DNA from: Thermosulfurimonas marina
GTDB taxonomy: Bacteria; Desulfobacterota; Thermodesulfobacteria; Thermodesulfobacteriales; Thermodesulfobacteriaceae
Direction: 5' to 3'
Assembly: GCF_012317585.1 (NCBI RefSeq)
Contig: NZ_CP042909.1
Coordinates: 1,674,001-1,738,000 of the forward strand
Length of the DNA: 64,000 nucleotides
Below, in pieces: positions 4,872 through 39,916 of the stretch. Under the pieces are notes generated by a model that ran no database searches, had not been told where the DNA came from, and saw only the letters and a program-made list of their open reading frames with translations. The position numbers were made by a program, and so were the translations under genes. Position 1 is the stretch's first letter. Each line of letters begins with the position of its first letter.

Positions 4872-6173
4872 TTATAGCAAACCTTGTGCCCGAAAGGCCT
4901 TGAGCTTATTGCGGAGGGTGCGGACACTTATGCCCAGGATCTCTGCGGCCCGGGTGCGATTGCCGCCGCAAGCCTTAAGGGCCGCCAGAATGGCTTCCTT
5001 TTCGAGCTCCCGGAGGGGTCTTATCGGAGGAGGGGATTCTTCCCGGGGGACGGTGGGGGAGAGGGGGCTTTCCCAGAGGAGATCCTCGGGGGTGATCTCC
5101 GGCCCACGGGCCAGAAGTACCGCCCTTTCCACCAGATTTTTTAGTTCTCGCACATTTCCCGGAAAGTCGTAGCCTTCAAAGATCTCCAAGACCTCCCGGG
5201 AAAAGCCCCGGATCTCTTTGCCGTAGCGCCGGGCAAATTCGCGCAGGAAGTGTTCGGCCAGATAGGGAATATCCGCCCGGCGTTCTCTCAAGGGGGGGAG
5301 TCTTACCGGGATCACATTTAAGCGAAAATAGAGGTCTTCCCGGAAGCGCCCCGCCCGGACCTCTTCTTCTATCTCTCGGTTGGTGGTGGCAATGACCCGG
5401 ACATCTACCTTTACGGGGTAAGCCCCACCGAGGCGGTCTACCTCTCCCTCCTGCAACACTCGCAGGAGTTTGGCCTGAAGGGGAAGGGGCATTTCGGTGA
5501 TCTCGTCAAGAAGGATAGTCCCTCCGTCGGCCAGTTCGAATTTCCCCTTTTTGCGGGTCAGGGCCCCGGAGAAGGCCCCTTTTTCATAGCCGAAAAGTTC
5601 GGACTCCAGGAGGGCTTCGGGAAGAGCCGCACAGTTTATGGCCACGAAGGGTCCCCGAGCCCGAGGGCTTACCTGGTGGAGCCAGCGGGCCAGGACCTCT
5701 TTTCCTGTACCGGACTCCCCGACAATGAGGACGGGAGCAGGGCTAGCGGCCACCGGCCGCAAACGCTCAAGCAGGGCCCGGAGGGCCGGATCCCGGGTGA
5801 GAAAGCCCTCCTCTCCTGAAAGAAGACGCCTTTCCTCTAGGGCGGCCAGGATCAGTTTCCGTAGAAGGTCTCTATCCGTGGAAAGGAGCCGGAAGTCATA
5901 GGCCCCGGCCCTTATAGCCTCCACCGCCTCTTCTACTCCGGCCCTTTCGGCCAGAAGCAGGACCGGAAGTCCGGGATGGTGGTGGCGAACCACGTCAAGG
6001 ATCTGACGAAAGGAAGGCCCCTCCCCTGACACCTCGGCCACTAGGATCTCTGGAGAATCTTCCCGGGGAAGGTCCGCCAGGAGGTCGGAAAGCAGACGCA
6101 CCGAGTGTTCCCGGGCCAGATCTTCGGCGAGCTCCCGGAGCCTTCCCGAGGGGGTCCAGAAGACAATGGCCAT
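4872..6173 (-). CDS. Sigma-54 activator of the FlrC/FleR type with a degenerate receiver domain
   Basis: A 433-aa NtrC-family transcription activator. Residues 1-115 have the size of a receiver domain, but the phospho-acceptor aspartate is replaced by E47 (ILVAEVSG), the acidic pair near the N-terminus is absent, and the conserved KP is missing. The AAA+ domain is intact: Walker A GESGTGKE 152-159, sigma-54 contact loop GAFSGA 199-204 (Ser instead of the usual Thr), Walker B TILLDE 219-224. A Fis-type helix-turn-helix ends the protein (GGNRTRAAEILGISVRTLRN). Sitting directly before flgB, it probably drives the flagellar rod and basal-body genes and perhaps acts without phosphorylation. Confidence 0.85.
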   Translation of the reverse strand: MAIVFWTPSGRLRELAEDLAREHSVRLLSDLLADLPREDSPEILVAEVSGEGPSFRQILDVVRHHHPGLPVLLLAERAGVEEAVEAIRAGAYDFRLLSTDRDLLRKLILAALEERRLLSGEEGFLTRDPALRALLERLRPVAASPAPVLIVGESGTGKEVLARWLHQVSPRARGPFVAINCAALPEALLESELFGYEKGAFSGALTRKKGKFELADGGTILLDEITEMPLPLQAKLLRVLQEGEVDRLGGAYPVKVDVRVIATTNREIEEEVRAGRFREDLYFRLNVIPVRLPPLRERRADIPYLAEHFLREFARRYGKEIRGFSREVLEIFEGYDFPGNVRELKNLVERAVLLARGPEITPEDLLWESPLSPTVPREESPPPIRPLRELEKEAILAALKACGGNRTRAAEILGISVRTLRNKLKAFRAQGLL

Positions 6174-32861: not shown

Positions 32862-33953
32862 ATGGAGATAAAGCCCTGGCTGAGGGAGCTTTCCCCTTAT
32901 CCTCCGGGAAAATCCCTGGAGGAGGTCCGACGGGAGCTCGGTCTTACCGGGCCCATTTACAAACTGGCCTCCAATGAGAATCCCCTGGGGCCCTCTCCGC
33001 GAGCCCTGGCGGCCCTTAAAGAGGCCCTTTCCCGGGTGCACCAGTATCCGGAGGCCTCTTATCGCCGCTTGCGGGAGGCGCTGGCTGCGCGCTTTGGGGT
33101 CTTGCCGGAGATGGTGGTCCTGGGAAACGGCTCAAACGAAGTCCTGGACCTCCTTTTTAAGGCCCTGGTCTCCCCGGGGGATGAGGTCCTGATGAGCGAG
33201 CCCTCCTTTCTGATGTATGAAAAGCTGGCCCAGACCGCGGGGGCCCGGATCACCAGGATTCCCTTGCATAAGGGGCGTCACCATCTGGCGGCCTTCCTTA
33301 AGGCCTCGGGGCCCCGGACCCGGATGATCTTTCTCGATCATCCCCACAATCCTACGGGCTCGGTGCTCGCGGCTTCCGAACTGAAGGCCTTTCTTGAGGA
33401 GCTTCCTTCGGGGGTCCTGGTGGTGATCGACGAGGCCTACGGGGAGTTTGTGCGCGATCCGGAGGCTGCCCGGGGGGTGGAGTTTCTCCAGGCCGGTTAT
33501 CCGGTGGCGGTCCTGCGCACCTTCTCCAAGGCTTACGGCCTTGCCGGACTGAGGATCGGCTACGGGCTCATGCCCGAAGAACTGGCTCGGGTCCTTAACG
33601 CCATTCGTCAACCCTTCAATGTTAATCTCTTGGCGGCCGTAGCCGCGGAGGCGGCCCTGGCCGACGAGGAACACCTGCAACGCACCCAGGAGTTGACCTG
33701 GGAGGGACGGGATTTTTTGCTCCGGGAGCTTTCCGCCCTGGGTCTCAAGCCCTATCCCTCGCAGGCCAACTTCGTCCTGGTGGACTGTGGCCGGCCGGCC
33801 CGTCCCCTTTACGAGGCCCTCCTTAAGCGGGGCCTTATTGTGCGCCCCATGGAGGCCTACGGTTTCCCTGAGGCCCTGCGTATCTCCGTGGGGCTTCCCG
33901 AGGAGAATCAAGCCCTGGTCGCGGCCCTGAGGGAGATGTTGGAAAAGGCATGA
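32862..33953 (+). CDS. hisC: Histidinol-phosphate aminotransferase HisC
   Basis: A 363-aa class I/II PLP aminotransferase of histidine synthesis. Motifs: KLASNENPLGPSPRALAAL (37 onwards), LGNGSNEVLDLLFKAL, LDHPHNPTGS, VIDEAYGEFV, and the PLP-lysine segment RTFSKAYGLAGLRIGYG. The N-terminal YPPGKSLEEVRRELGL is typical of HisC. No other his gene is close. The ATG has no SD; a TATAAT ends 7 bases upstream, overlapping the sufB stop, so an extra leaderless transcript is possible. Ends in an ATGA overlap with cmk. Confidence 0.92.
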   Translation: MEIKPWLRELSPYPPGKSLEEVRRELGLTGPIYKLASNENPLGPSPRALAALKEALSRVHQYPEASYRRLREALAARFGVLPEMVVLGNGSNEVLDLLFKALVSPGDEVLMSEPSFLMYEKLAQTAGARITRIPLHKGRHHLAAFLKASGPRTRMIFLDHPHNPTGSVLAASELKAFLEELPSGVLVVIDEAYGEFVRDPEAARGVEFLQAGYPVAVLRTFSKAYGLAGLRIGYGLMPEELARVLNAIRQPFNVNLLAAVAAEAALADEEHLQRTQELTWEGRDFLLRELSALGLKPYPSQANFVLVDCGRPARPLYEALLKRGLIVRPMEAYGFPEALRISVGLPEENQALVAALREMLEKA

Positions 33954-34624
33954 GGGCTCCGGAAATCATTACCATTGATGGTCCGGCGGGAAGCGGAAAG
34001 ACCACCGTGGCCCGGATGCTCGCTCGGCATCTAGGCTGGCGGCTCCTGGAGTCGGGAAGTCTTTACCGGGCCCTTACCTGGCTGGCCCTTTCCGAGGCCC
34101 CGGAACTTCTCAAGGAGAGGGGACCTCGGCTGATGAAGTTTTTGCGGGAGCGCCTTCCGGATTTGCGTTTTGAGGCCTCGGAGAAGGGGCTTTCTCTTTT
34201 TTTCCGGGAAAAGCCCCTCAGGGAAGAGTTGCGCCTTCCGGAGGTGGAGGCCCGGGTTTCCGAGCTTGCGGCGGTGCCCGAAGTGCGGGAGCTGGTGGGC
34301 GAGATCCTCCGGGAGCTAGCCCGGGAGGGCCGGGTGGTGGCCGAGGGCCGGGACATGGGGACCGTGGTCTTTCCCGAGGCTCAGGCCAAGTTCTTTCTTA
34401 CGGCCTCGGACGAAGTTCGGGCCGAAAGACGCCTTCGGGACTGGCGGGCCCAGGGGCTTTCCGTAACCCGGGAGGAGGTTCTCGCCAGCCTTAAGGCCCG
34501 CGACCAGAAGGATTCCACCCGCAAGACCGCTCCGCTGACCATCCCTCAAGGGGCCTTGGTGATCGACACTTCGGAAAAGAGCCCGGAGGAGGTCCTGAAA
34601 GAGATCCTCTCCCGCCTCCCTTGA
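33950..34624 (+). CDS. cmk: Cytidylate kinase
   Basis: Cmk (224 aa) phosphorylates CMP/dCMP. P-loop IDGPAGSGKTTVARML at 9-24, LESGSLYRALTWLAL (CMP-binding), EGRDMGTVVFPEAQAKFFLT, and the lid segment RDQKDSTRKTAPL are all in place. The triad cmk-rpsA-sppA is conserved in many Proteobacteria and Desulfobacterota. Confidence 0.96.
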   Translation: MRAPEIITIDGPAGSGKTTVARMLARHLGWRLLESGSLYRALTWLALSEAPELLKERGPRLMKFLRERLPDLRFEASEKGLSLFFREKPLREELRLPEVEARVSELAAVPEVRELVGEILRELAREGRVVAEGRDMGTVVFPEAQAKFFLTASDEVRAERRLRDWRAQGLSVTREEVLASLKARDQKDSTRKTAPLTIPQGALVIDTSEKSPEEVLKEILSRLP

Positions 34625-34684: not shown

Positions 34685-36358
34685 ATGTCGGAAACACAGG
34701 TCACGGAAAACTTTGAATCCCTTCTTGAAACCCAGAGCGAGCCCGTGCACCTTCGTCGAGGGGCGGTGGTGGAAGGCCGGGTGCTCGCCATCAATCCCGA
34801 CTGGACCTTTGTGGATATCGGGTATAAGTCCGAAGGGATCGTGGCTACGGAGGAATTCCGGCGGGCCGACGGCACGCTTAGGGTGCAGGAGGGGGACCGT
34901 ATAGAGGTTCTGGTGGAGCGGGTGCGTGGTCAGGACGGCCTGGTCCGGCTTTCCTTTGCCAAGCTCCTTCAGTCTCGGGCCTGGGAGCGCATCCTTTCCG
35001 CCCAGAAAGAAGGTGGGGTGCTTGAGGCCTATGTGGTGGAACCGATCAAGGGAGGTTTTGCCGTAGAGATCGAAGGGGTGCGGGCCTTTCTCCCCTTCTC
35101 GCATGCCTATCTGGAGCCCCCGCGGGAGCGCAACGAGATTGTGGGGAAGACCATTCGGGTGGAGGTCCTTTCGGCCTCCCGCAGGCGGAACAACGTGGTG
35201 GTCTCTCATAAAAACGTCCTGGAGAAAGAAAGGGAGGCCCGCCGCCGCGAGCTCCTGGAGTCCCTGGAAGAGGGACAGGTGGTGGAGGGTACGGTAAGCA
35301 AGATCTTGGACTACGGAGTGTTTGTGGATCTCGGGGGTCTGGATGCCTTTATGCATCTTTCGGACCTTTCCTGGGGCAAGGTCCGCCATCCGGAAGACCT
35401 CCTGCGGGAAGGGGATCGTCTCCGGGTGCGGGTCCTTTCGGTGGACCGGGAAAAGGCCAAGATCAAGGTGGGTCTCAAGCAGCTCACCCCGGACCCCTGG
35501 GAGAGGGTGGCCGAAAAGTATCGTGAGGGAGACCGGGTGACCGGAAGGGTGGTCTCCCTGACCTCCTTTGGGGCCTTTGTGGAGGTGGAGCCCGGGGTAG
35601 AGGGTCTGATCCACATCTCCGAGCTTTCCTGGACCAAGAGGGTCAAGCATCCCCGAGAGATGCTCTCGGTGGGCGACCAGGTGGAGGTGGTCATCCTCAA
35701 GGTGGATCCCGAGGCCCGGAGGCTTTCTCTGAGTCTGCGCCGGGTAGAACCCAATCCCTGGGAGATCCTGGCGGAAAATATGCCTCCGGGAACGGTGATC
35801 GAGGCCCCGGTAAAGACGGTGACCGATTTCGGAATCTTTGTGGAAGTGACCCAGGATATCGACGGCTTTATCCATATTTCGGACCTTTCCTGGGGGCGCT
35901 TGGAGCACCCTTCGGAAAGATTCAAACCCGGGGATGTGGTCCGGGCGGTGGTCCTTAAGATCGATCCCGAAAGGGAAAAGCTCAGTCTGGGAATCAAGCA
36001 GCTCCGTCCGGACCCCTGGGAGGTGGCTCCTCAGAAGTACCCGGTGGGGAGCACCGTGAGCGGTCGGGTGACCAAGGTGACCGACTTTGGGGTCTTTGTG
36101 GAGGTGGAGGGGGGCCTGGAAGGGCTGGTCCATGTTTCGGAGATCAGCGAGGAGCGGGTGGAAGACCCGGCCAAGCTCTTTGAGGTGGGCCAGGAGGTCA
36201 AGGCCAAGGTCCTGCGGCTCGATCCCGAAAAGAGGCGTCTTTCCCTTTCCATTCGCCGTTATCAAGAGGAGGCGGAAAGGGAGGCCTATCTCGGAGAGGG
36301 CAGCCGGGCCGGAGTCACCCTGGGGGATTTTCTGAAAGAGGCCACCCCATCTAAGTAG
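34685..36358 (+). CDS. rpsA: 30S ribosomal protein S1 (six S1 domains)
   Basis: RpsA (557 aa) binds mRNA at the small subunit. Six S1 repeats can be counted from their start phrases: VVEGRVLAINPDWTFVDIG, VLEAYVVEPIKGGFAVEIEG, VVEGTVSKILDYGVFVDLGG, VTGRVVSLTSFGAFVEVE, VIEAPVKTVTDFGIFVEV, and VSGRVTKVTDFGVFVEVEGG. It is preceded by TATAAG (34644) and AGGAGG before the ATG. The acidic N-terminus is short, as in other S1 proteins of this length. Confidence 0.96.
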   Translation: MSETQVTENFESLLETQSEPVHLRRGAVVEGRVLAINPDWTFVDIGYKSEGIVATEEFRRADGTLRVQEGDRIEVLVERVRGQDGLVRLSFAKLLQSRAWERILSAQKEGGVLEAYVVEPIKGGFAVEIEGVRAFLPFSHAYLEPPRERNEIVGKTIRVEVLSASRRRNNVVVSHKNVLEKEREARRRELLESLEEGQVVEGTVSKILDYGVFVDLGGLDAFMHLSDLSWGKVRHPEDLLREGDRLRVRVLSVDREKAKIKVGLKQLTPDPWERVAEKYREGDRVTGRVVSLTSFGAFVEVEPGVEGLIHISELSWTKRVKHPREMLSVGDQVEVVILKVDPEARRLSLSLRRVEPNPWEILAENMPPGTVIEAPVKTVTDFGIFVEVTQDIDGFIHISDLSWGRLEHPSERFKPGDVVRAVVLKIDPEREKLSLGIKQLRPDPWEVAPQKYPVGSTVSGRVTKVTDFGVFVEVEGGLEGLVHVSEISEERVEDPAKLFEVGQEVKAKVLRLDPEKRRLSLSIRRYQEEAEREAYLGEGSRAGVTLGDFLKEATPSK

Positions 36359-36369
36359 GACTTTTTTAT

Positions 36370-37242
36370 ATGCGCAAGGGGGTCCTATACGCTTTAGCCC
36401 TGGTAGGGGCCTTCTTTCTTTTCTTAGTGGCCCTGGCCTTTCTCCTTTCCTTTTGGACCCTTAAGGGTCAGGGCCTTCCGGGGAGGGAGGCCGTCGGAGT
36501 TGTAGAGATTCGGGGGCTCATCACCCAGGTTCGGGATCAGATAGACCTCTTAGAAAATTTCCGGCGTCGCAAAGAGATTCGGGCGGTGGTGGTCCGTATC
36601 GAAAGTCCCGGGGGCACGGTGGGGGCCTCCCAGGAACTTTATGAAGAATTGCGTCAGGTCTCTCAGGAAAAACCGGTGGTGGTCTCCCTGGGCTCCCTGG
36701 CCACTTCCGGGGCCTATTATGTGGCTCTCGGAGGGCAAAAGATCCTGGCCCTTCCCGGCACAGTCACCGGAAGCATTGGGGTCCTTTTGCAGGTGCCCAA
36801 TCTGGAGGGGCTGCTTAAGAAACTGGGCATCAAGCCCCTGGTGCTAAAAAGCGGGGCCCACAAGGACCTGGTTTCCTATTATCGGGAGCCTACCCCGGAG
36901 GAAAAGCGTCTCCTTCAGGAGGTCCTCGACGATATTCACACCCAGTTTATAAAGGCGGTGAGTGAACGCCGGGGGCTTCCGGAGGAGAAGGTGCGCCGGA
37001 TCGCCGACGGCCGGATTTTTACCGGACGCCAGGCCCGGGCCTTGGGGCTGATCGACGATTTCGGGAATTTGGCCCGGGCGGTAGAGGTTGCGGCAAAGAT
37101 GGCCGGCCTTTCCGGCCCTCCCCGGGTGATCTACGGGCGTCCTGAGCAAGGGCTTCTCCGTAGGCTTCTTGAAGGTCGGGTGGAGGGCCGGCTTCTGGGA
37201 CTTTGGGCGGCGCCCTGGTTTGTCTGGACGGGAGGGTCATGA
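36370..37242 (+). CDS. sppA: Signal peptide peptidase SppA
   Basis: A 290-aa short-form SppA, a membrane serine/lysine protease that degrades cleaved signal peptides. One N-terminal membrane helix lies at about 8-30. Catalytic region: VVVSLGSLATSGAYYVALGG (nucleophilic Ser in ATSGAYY) and LVLKSGAHKDLVSYYREPT (general-base Lys). ESPGGTVGASQELYEEL and TGRQARALGLIDDFGN are family words. It ends in an ATGA overlap with the IHF-Ppx fusion. Confidence 0.94.
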   Translation: MRKGVLYALALVGAFFLFLVALAFLLSFWTLKGQGLPGREAVGVVEIRGLITQVRDQIDLLENFRRRKEIRAVVVRIESPGGTVGASQELYEELRQVSQEKPVVVSLGSLATSGAYYVALGGQKILALPGTVTGSIGVLLQVPNLEGLLKKLGIKPLVLKSGAHKDLVSYYREPTPEEKRLLQEVLDDIHTQFIKAVSERRGLPEEKVRRIADGRIFTGRQARALGLIDDFGNLARAVEVAAKMAGLSGPPRVIYGRPEQGLLRRLLEGRVEGRLLGLWAAPWFVWTGGS

Positions 37243-38405
37243 AAAAAAGAGATCTGGCCCTGAGGCTTTCGGTCCACTTTCCGGATCTTCGGAGGAAGGA
37301 TCTGGAGGCCCTGGTGGAGGCGGCCTTTGAGGAGATGACCCAGGCCCTCCTCGAAGACCGTCCGCTGGAATTTCGGGGCTTTGGCCGCTTGGAGGTCCAT
37401 CACGGGCGGGAGCGTCTTTTTGTCAATCCCAAAAATCAGAAGACCTACCATGTCCGGGGCAACCGCCGGGTGGTCTTCAAGGTGGGAAAGGATCTCCAGG
37501 AGAGATTGAATCGTCCTCCTCGGGCCGTCTTAGATCTGGGCACCCAGACCTTTCGTCTGGCCCTGGGGAAAGGAGAGGGCCGGGGCCTGCGGGTCATCTT
37601 CCGGCACCGGGTAAATGTTCGGCTAGGGGAGGGATTCCGGGAAGGAAAGTTGAGTCCGCAGGCCATCCAGAGGGGTCTGGCGACCCTTGCGGAATTCCGG
37701 AAGATCCTGGACCACCTGGGGGTCGAGCAGGTGCAGGCCGTGGGGACGGCCATCCTGCGGGAGGCCCAAAATGCCGAGGACTTTCATCGCGAGGCCCGGC
37801 GCCTGGGCTTTGCTATAAGACCTATCCCTGGCGAGGAGGAAGCGGAGCTGGTCTTAAAGGGGGTGCTCCACGGCCTCAAACTTGCCGACCCCTTTTTCCT
37901 GGTAGATGCCGGAGGAGGAAGTACGGAGGTCTCCCTGGTACGTGAAGGCCGGCGTATCTGGGGGGTGAGTCTTCCCTTTGGAGCGGTGAAATTGCGGGAG
38001 CGCTTTGTCCGAGATTATCCCCTGACCCGGGAGGAGTTTCAGGGCCTGCGGAACTATTTGGTGCGGGAGTTCCAGAATCTCCGTCCTCCGGAGATTCCTT
38101 CCCGGTTCGTGGCCTGCGGGGGCACGGCTAGCCTTCTGGCCGCTCTGGATCTCCGCCTGGCCTACTATCTCCCGGAGAAGCTTCACGGCCATCGTCTCCC
38201 TCTGGAAAGGGTTCAGGCCCTGGTGGACCACCTGCGGGGGCTTTCCCTTTCCAAAATTGCTCGCCTGCGGGGTATGGAGCGCGGGCGGGAGGATATCGCC
38301 CTTCCGGGAATCCTGATCTATGAACAGCTTATGCGTCACTTCGGCCTCAAGGAACTTCTGGTCAGCGAATGGGGTCTTTTGGAAGGCCTCCTCTTGTCTT
38401 TTTGA
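37239..38405 (+). CDS. Fusion: IHF/HU-type DNA-binding domain + Ppx/GppA phosphatase
   Basis: A 388-aa single frame joining two families. Residues 1-~92 are an IHF/HU subunit: KKRDLALRLSVHFPDLRRKD, LVEAAFEEMTQALLE, FRGFGRLEVHHGRERLFVNP (body and DNA-intercalating arm with its proline), and VVFKVGKDLQERLN. After about four linker residues the exopolyphosphatase/pppGpp phosphohydrolase domain begins: AVLDLGTQTFRLALG (phosphate loop), VGTAILREAQNAEDF, FFLVDAGGGSTEVSLV, LPFGAVKLRERF, and CGGTASLLAALDLRLA. No stop or good internal start separates them. In related genomes a free ihfB follows sppA. The ATG at 37239 overlaps the sppA stop. Confidence 0.88.
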   Translation: MKKRDLALRLSVHFPDLRRKDLEALVEAAFEEMTQALLEDRPLEFRGFGRLEVHHGRERLFVNPKNQKTYHVRGNRRVVFKVGKDLQERLNRPPRAVLDLGTQTFRLALGKGEGRGLRVIFRHRVNVRLGEGFREGKLSPQAIQRGLATLAEFRKILDHLGVEQVQAVGTAILREAQNAEDFHREARRLGFAIRPIPGEEEAELVLKGVLHGLKLADPFFLVDAGGGSTEVSLVREGRRIWGVSLPFGAVKLRERFVRDYPLTREEFQGLRNYLVREFQNLRPPEIPSRFVACGGTASLLAALDLRLAYYLPEKLHGHRLPLERVQALVDHLRGLSLSKIARLRGMERGREDIALPGILIYEQLMRHFGLKELLVSEWGLLEGLLLSF

Positions 38406-38419
38406 GGAATTTCACCTAA

Positions 38420-39916
<1,497 letters not shown>

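Follow-up and report, generated by a model that had tools for sequence, protein, structure and literature searches.

A single gene of Thermosulfurimonas marina, at positions 37239-38405 of the window (the 64,000-nucleotide stretch of contig NZ_CP042909.1 analysed here), encodes a full IHFβ-type domain that passes straight into a full short-form Ppx/GppA domain. IHF acts on chromosome structure and on gene expression, and the pppGpp:ppGpp balance is set by Ppx/GppA. The best reading of this protein, which in our judgement has about an even chance of being right, is that of an IHF that would carry a nucleoid-tethered pppGpp phosphatase. The two functions form one polypeptide throughout the order of the window, and one complete genome has no further copy of either. 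The fusion opens to experiment the question whether alarmone turnover is located on the nucleoid or read out through it. To our knowledge no described protein joins IHF and Ppx/GppA, and a published description of an IHFβ-Ppx/GppA fusion was not found in the open-access literature, in agreement with the sequence-only reading, which had known of no protein of this build. The families of both halves are well known; judged by the open-access literature, the novelty lies in their combination, in its fixation across the order and in the fact that this gene alone covers both functions. Public genomes already contain the sequence, and domain databases may show the architecture.

The gene and its two domains

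The ORF reading of the window gives 388 uninterrupted codons on the forward strand (Table 1). The initiating ATG shares its bases with the sppA stop (ATGA), and guaB begins 35 bases 3' of the fusion stop. A promoter and terminator scan gave no signal clearly exceeding chance. The build of two domains in one frame, proposed from the letters of the sequence, was borne out with correct coordinates by Pfam and NCBIfam matches to both halves.

Table 1. Features of the fusion gene and its neighbours in the window
Feature	Position	Strand	Remarks
cmk	33950..34624	+	neighbour; retained in part of the order's loci
rpsA	34685..36358	+	neighbour of the fusion, conserved
sppA	36370..37242	+	upstream neighbour, 4-base overlap with the fusion start
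ihfB-ppx fusion gene	37239..38405	+	388 aa, single open frame, ATG to TGA
IHFβ-type domain	37239..37514	+	residues 1-92; E44, R46, N63-P64, G83-K84, C-terminal helix 84-90
junction	37515..37520	+	residues 93-94, between HU domain and Ppx strand 1 (residue 95)
short-form Ppx/GppA domain	37521..38402	+	residues 95-388; D99-x-G-T-Q103-T, R174, E201, D223-x-GGG-S-T-E230
guaB (IMP dehydrogenase)	38441..39916	+	downstream neighbour in all order loci examined

The N-terminal half matches Bac_DNA_binding (PF00216) at residues 1-91 over profile positions 1-90 of 90 (64 bits, 1.2e-17, cut-off 22.4), and among the NCBIfam subfamilies it scores 59 bits as IHF-beta, 40 as IHF-alpha and 23 as HU. The IHFβ equivalog PRK00199 scores 59.3 bits against a cut-off of 115, which the free outgroup protein of locus L126 (94.6) also misses and that of locus L128 (118.1) exceeds. 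E44, R46, F48, G49, N63, P64 and G83 are identical in all 30 fused sequences; E44 and R46, in E. coli IHF the β-subunit residues reading the TTR part of the site, match the numbering of E. coli IHFβ. The proline at the arm tip of IHF/HU proteins intercalates in DNA (PMC8421141). The arm around it is altered in the fused proteins, with F61 in 30 of 30 and a variable residue 62. On these sequence grounds the N-terminal half is of IHFβ type, by its best subfamily score, by E44/R46 and by its syntenic place after sppA, as had been proposed. The HU fold is supported by sequence profiles and by the structure model, the VIA structural list spanning residues 87-388 only.

The C-terminal half matches Ppx-GppA (PF02541) at residues 115-387 (191 bits, 4.6e-56), like the N-terminal match well in excess of the Pfam cut-off, and by NCBIfam the domain begins at residue 96. 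Foldseek pairs it with 1t6d (9.3e-31), a protein of the ASKHA fold, VIA Z values between this half and Ppx/GppA chains lie at 30-40, and the nearest solved relative by sequence is the Aquifex PPX/GPPA. Residues R174, E201, D223, G225-G227, S228 and E230 are identical in all 30 fused sequences, and E201, D223 and E230 align with E121, D143 and E150 of enterobacterial PPX (alignment to 8jgw, Klebsiella PPX, whose chain seems to include a 20-residue tag). Arg, Glu, Asp and Glu residues of this kind are assigned roles in catalysis of hydrolysis and in metal binding (PMC3411833). The catalytic Arg and Glu and the metal-binding Asp and Glu are all present, and we predict that the enzyme encoded by the Ppx half is intact. 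All 30 fused proteins have DxG(S/T)Q(S/T) as their first phosphate loop; the position of Gln103 is occupied by Asn in nearly all free relatives and by Gln in one of them (L106).

In an AlphaFold2 model of the whole protein (mean pLDDT 92.1, pTM 0.82) the C-terminal helix of the HU domain spans residues 84-90 and the Ppx part opens with a strand at 95-100, leaving a linker of about 2-4 residues, close to the four or so counted previously. The pLDDT falls to 75 at residues 81-90, and the relative orientation of the two domains is therefore less certain than the domains themselves. Not one of the 30 fused sequences has a gap or indel at residues 80-110. Pairwise omega lies between 0.03 and 0.12 in the HU half and between 0.07 and 0.29 in the Ppx half; several pairs are close to saturation at synonymous sites. 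Such low values point to purifying selection on both halves. Production of two proteins by internal initiation was considered and rejected: the window has a TTG at L90 after AGGAGAGA, TTG or GTG stands there in only 6 of 30 sequences, and no conserved internal start codon was found at the junction in the 30.

Distribution in the order and origin of the fusion

The fused protein is matched in 39 of the 41 genomes of the window's order, where the sequence-only reading had suggested looking, at 38-64% identity to the window protein, and in 36 of them it is full length and in one frame. These include, besides the window genome (complete, one contig, 1.76 Mb), six single-contig genomes (G028, G065, G100, G128, G198, G204). 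Of the three partial matches, two (G217, G205) end at contig edges and one (G226) is frameshifted; the two order genomes with no match are 64% and 93% complete. When 395 genomes of the phylum were scanned with a profile of 30 fused proteins, the end-to-end matches among those listed, a listing limited to the stronger ones, were confined to the order (families f1, f2 and f78), and in the other listed families the alignment begins near profile position 92, as expected of a free Ppx. A shallow scan of 12 loci in other phyla gave no HU domain beside Ppx.

The frameshift in G226, a fragmented genome of the window's genus, lies in the Ppx half near residues 214-221 (L162, G226:C136:6400-7900) and is either a sequencing error or a real loss.

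That an assembly or sequencing artefact joined two genes has a negligible probability and was rejected: the frameshifted copy of G226 is the one observation in its favour, and the 36 full-length fused frames, those of the six other single-contig genomes among them, speak against it. The sequence-only reading had named relatives with separate genes as a sign of such an error. Relatives within the order are fused, the split form being absent from every order genome that holds the locus, and separate genes occur only outside the order.

In the complete window genome the fusion is the sole PF02541 gene. The HU-type genes besides it encode an HU (L001), an IHFα-like protein (L002), a further HU-like protein, encoded next to alaS (L004), and a probable remnant (L005). 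L002, which lies upstream of an ORF that is MerR-like by eye, scores 85 bits as IHFα and 59 as IHFβ, and its orthologues are likely present throughout the order. IHFβ is not the best-scoring subfamily for any of these four, which leaves the fusion as the genome's one IHFβ candidate, and the earlier suggestion of looking for a second ihfB or ppx ended with a sole IHFβ-like and sole Ppx/GppA gene and, elsewhere in the genome, a gene for an IHFα-like partner.

Two of these genes deserve a description. The HU-like protein of L004 (L004:1489-1782, C1 about 1496812) has 97 residues, is weakly IHFα-like and is encoded convergently, overlapping the end of alaS. That of L005 (L005:1375-1722, C1 about 543571) has 115 residues with a basic N-terminal extension and without the DNA-binding arm, and looks like a remnant or a specialised HU.

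The order sppA-fusion-guaB is kept in 14 of 14 order loci with wide flanks, and in 13 of these rpsA precedes sppA. Outside the order, in family f40 (L128), a free ihfB following cmk-rpsA-sppA has its last base at 5264 and, after a gap of 20 bp, ppx begins at 5285 in a different frame; in family f19 (L126) a convergent gene lies between ihfB and ppx, and guaB follows ppx. The gene guaB adjoins free ppx in several outgroup families. In an HU tree that has 95 columns only and is weakly resolved, the fused domains group together (88/94) beside the free IHFβ of f19 (85/70, modest); E. coli IHF and HU served as its controls, and its rows IHFA_L136 and IHFA_L141 are a distant pair, probably read on the wrong strand, which leaves the conclusion unaffected. 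The fused Ppx domains likewise form one group in the Ppx tree (96/89). As unfused ihfB and ppx lie at this same place in relatives, one ancient merger of operon neighbours, which became fixed in the order's common ancestor, explains all of these sequence data. The placement after cmk-rpsA-sppA as the usual seat of ihfB was recognised correctly from the window alone. The companion proposal, that a phosphatase was added to the resident ihfB by loss of its stop, comes close and holds for the resident gene and for the merger; more exactly, the gene merged with ppx, already its downstream neighbour in related families. The locus is a clean example of how operon neighbours can merge into a fusion that is then conserved, and relatives still show the two genes apart.

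A genome of another family (G121, L019) has a free ppx at 1432-2328 with an HU-like gene directly downstream at 2390-2650, a second and separate HU/ppx neighbourhood in the phylum.

Substrate and function

We predict that the fused IHFβ half forms a heterodimer with IHFα, the product of a separate gene, and that this heterodimer would bend DNA at IHF sites. The C-terminal half would remove the terminal 5' phosphate, converting pppGpp to ppGpp. Because the genome has no IHFβ or Ppx/GppA gene besides the fusion, one phosphatase would be carried per IHF heterodimer, presumably anchored where the C-terminal helix of IHFβ ends, and the trimming of pppGpp would be located on the nucleoid. DNA binding, IHFα pairing, the substrate and any functional coupling of the halves are properties that we infer for the fusion.

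With respect to the substrate, PPK1 was found in none of the 41 order genomes and PPK2 over the cut-off in none, and a RelA/SpoT gene is present in 39 of them. The product of the adjacent guaB is the first enzyme of the GMP/GTP branch. Since the order has RelA/SpoT and neither kinase, with guaB alongside the fusion, pppGpp appears a likelier substrate than polyphosphate, and the polyphosphate side of the metabolism first envisaged for this protein becomes less likely. Neither PPK1 nor PPK2 was found in 14 outgroup genomes (ten genera) selected for free ppx. As these genomes, several with ppx beside guaB, are without both kinases, this Ppx/GppA lineage seems not to serve polyphosphate from known kinases. 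The order and its outgroups are natural material for the role of Ppx/GppA in cells without polyphosphate kinase.

The missing kinases in these 41 order and 14 outgroup genomes also weigh against the protein being a nucleoid-bound exopolyphosphatase or NTPase in place of a pppGpp phosphatase, an alternative that we regard as unlikely. It would agree with exo_poly_only (TIGR03706) being the best NCBIfam model of the Ppx half, yet the match reaches 229 bits against a cut-off of 307, and with short-form homologues of M. tuberculosis, two of which do not hydrolyse pppGpp, Ppx1 preferring short polyphosphate and leaving pppGpp uncleaved (PMC3411833). By analogy those homologues also argue against the best reading, a pppGpp phosphatase on IHF, as would the replacement of a near-universal Asn by Gln103 and, in the IHFβ half, an altered arm and a score of 59 bits compared with 95-118 for free IHFβ. 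Furthermore, the merging of adjacent operon genes can be neutral. The main rival, possible though clearly short of an even chance, builds on this: the halves would keep their ancestral jobs with no interaction, joined by a lost ihfB stop whose reversal is unlikely. The neighbouring ihfB and ppx of relatives, the motifs that each half retains and a distribution accounted for by a single event all fit such a neutral fusion; the absence of the split form from all order genomes with the locus does not, nor does a junction of constant length in 30 sequences, where free IHFβ ends and free Ppx starts are variable.

A rather improbable alternative is that (p)ppGpp binding is the chief role of the Ppx domain, whose movement alters DNA binding or bending by IHF, which would make the protein a direct stringent-response regulator. 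A junction that is short and without indels could pass movement between the domains, and PPX/GppA of H. pylori was crystallised with ppGpp (6pc1), as was, going by a paper title cited in PMC7552824, the 31-32% identical PPX/GPPA of A. aeolicus; a pure sensor would, on the other side, have no need of the catalytic residues, all of which are retained. Returning to the pppGpp phosphatase tethered to IHF, it is conceivable, though doubtful, that the nucleoid protein is itself a component of the stringent response, in which (p)ppGpp binding or hydrolysis would change IHF bending or bridging, or DNA would gate the phosphatase. If true, alarmones would control chromosome structure directly.

Comparison with known systems

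With IHFβ (PF00216; PRK00199/TIGR00988) the fusion shares a full-length HU/IHF domain, the arm N63-P64, E44 and R46, and the genomic place after cmk-rpsA-sppA. It differs in an enzyme domain of about 294 residues added at the C-terminus, and in changed residues around the arm proline with a score under the equivalog cut-off (59 against 115 bits). Compared with the separate genes of L128, the order rpsA-sppA-ihfB-ppx is common, but there ihfB ends at its own stop and ppx has its own start; the order in L126 is also common, including guaB after ppx, but a convergent gene intervenes. The PPX/GPPA of Aquifex aeolicus (1t6c, 2j4r) is 31-32% identical across the whole domain and has in common the ASKHA fold (VIA Z 33-34) and the four key catalytic and metal residues, whereas the fusion has the extra N-terminal IHFβ domain. 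The phosphate loop of the fusion is DxGTQT in contrast to the usual DxG(S/T)N(S/T). Unlike E. coli PPX/GppA, both the fusion and the Aquifex protein are without the C-terminal domains.
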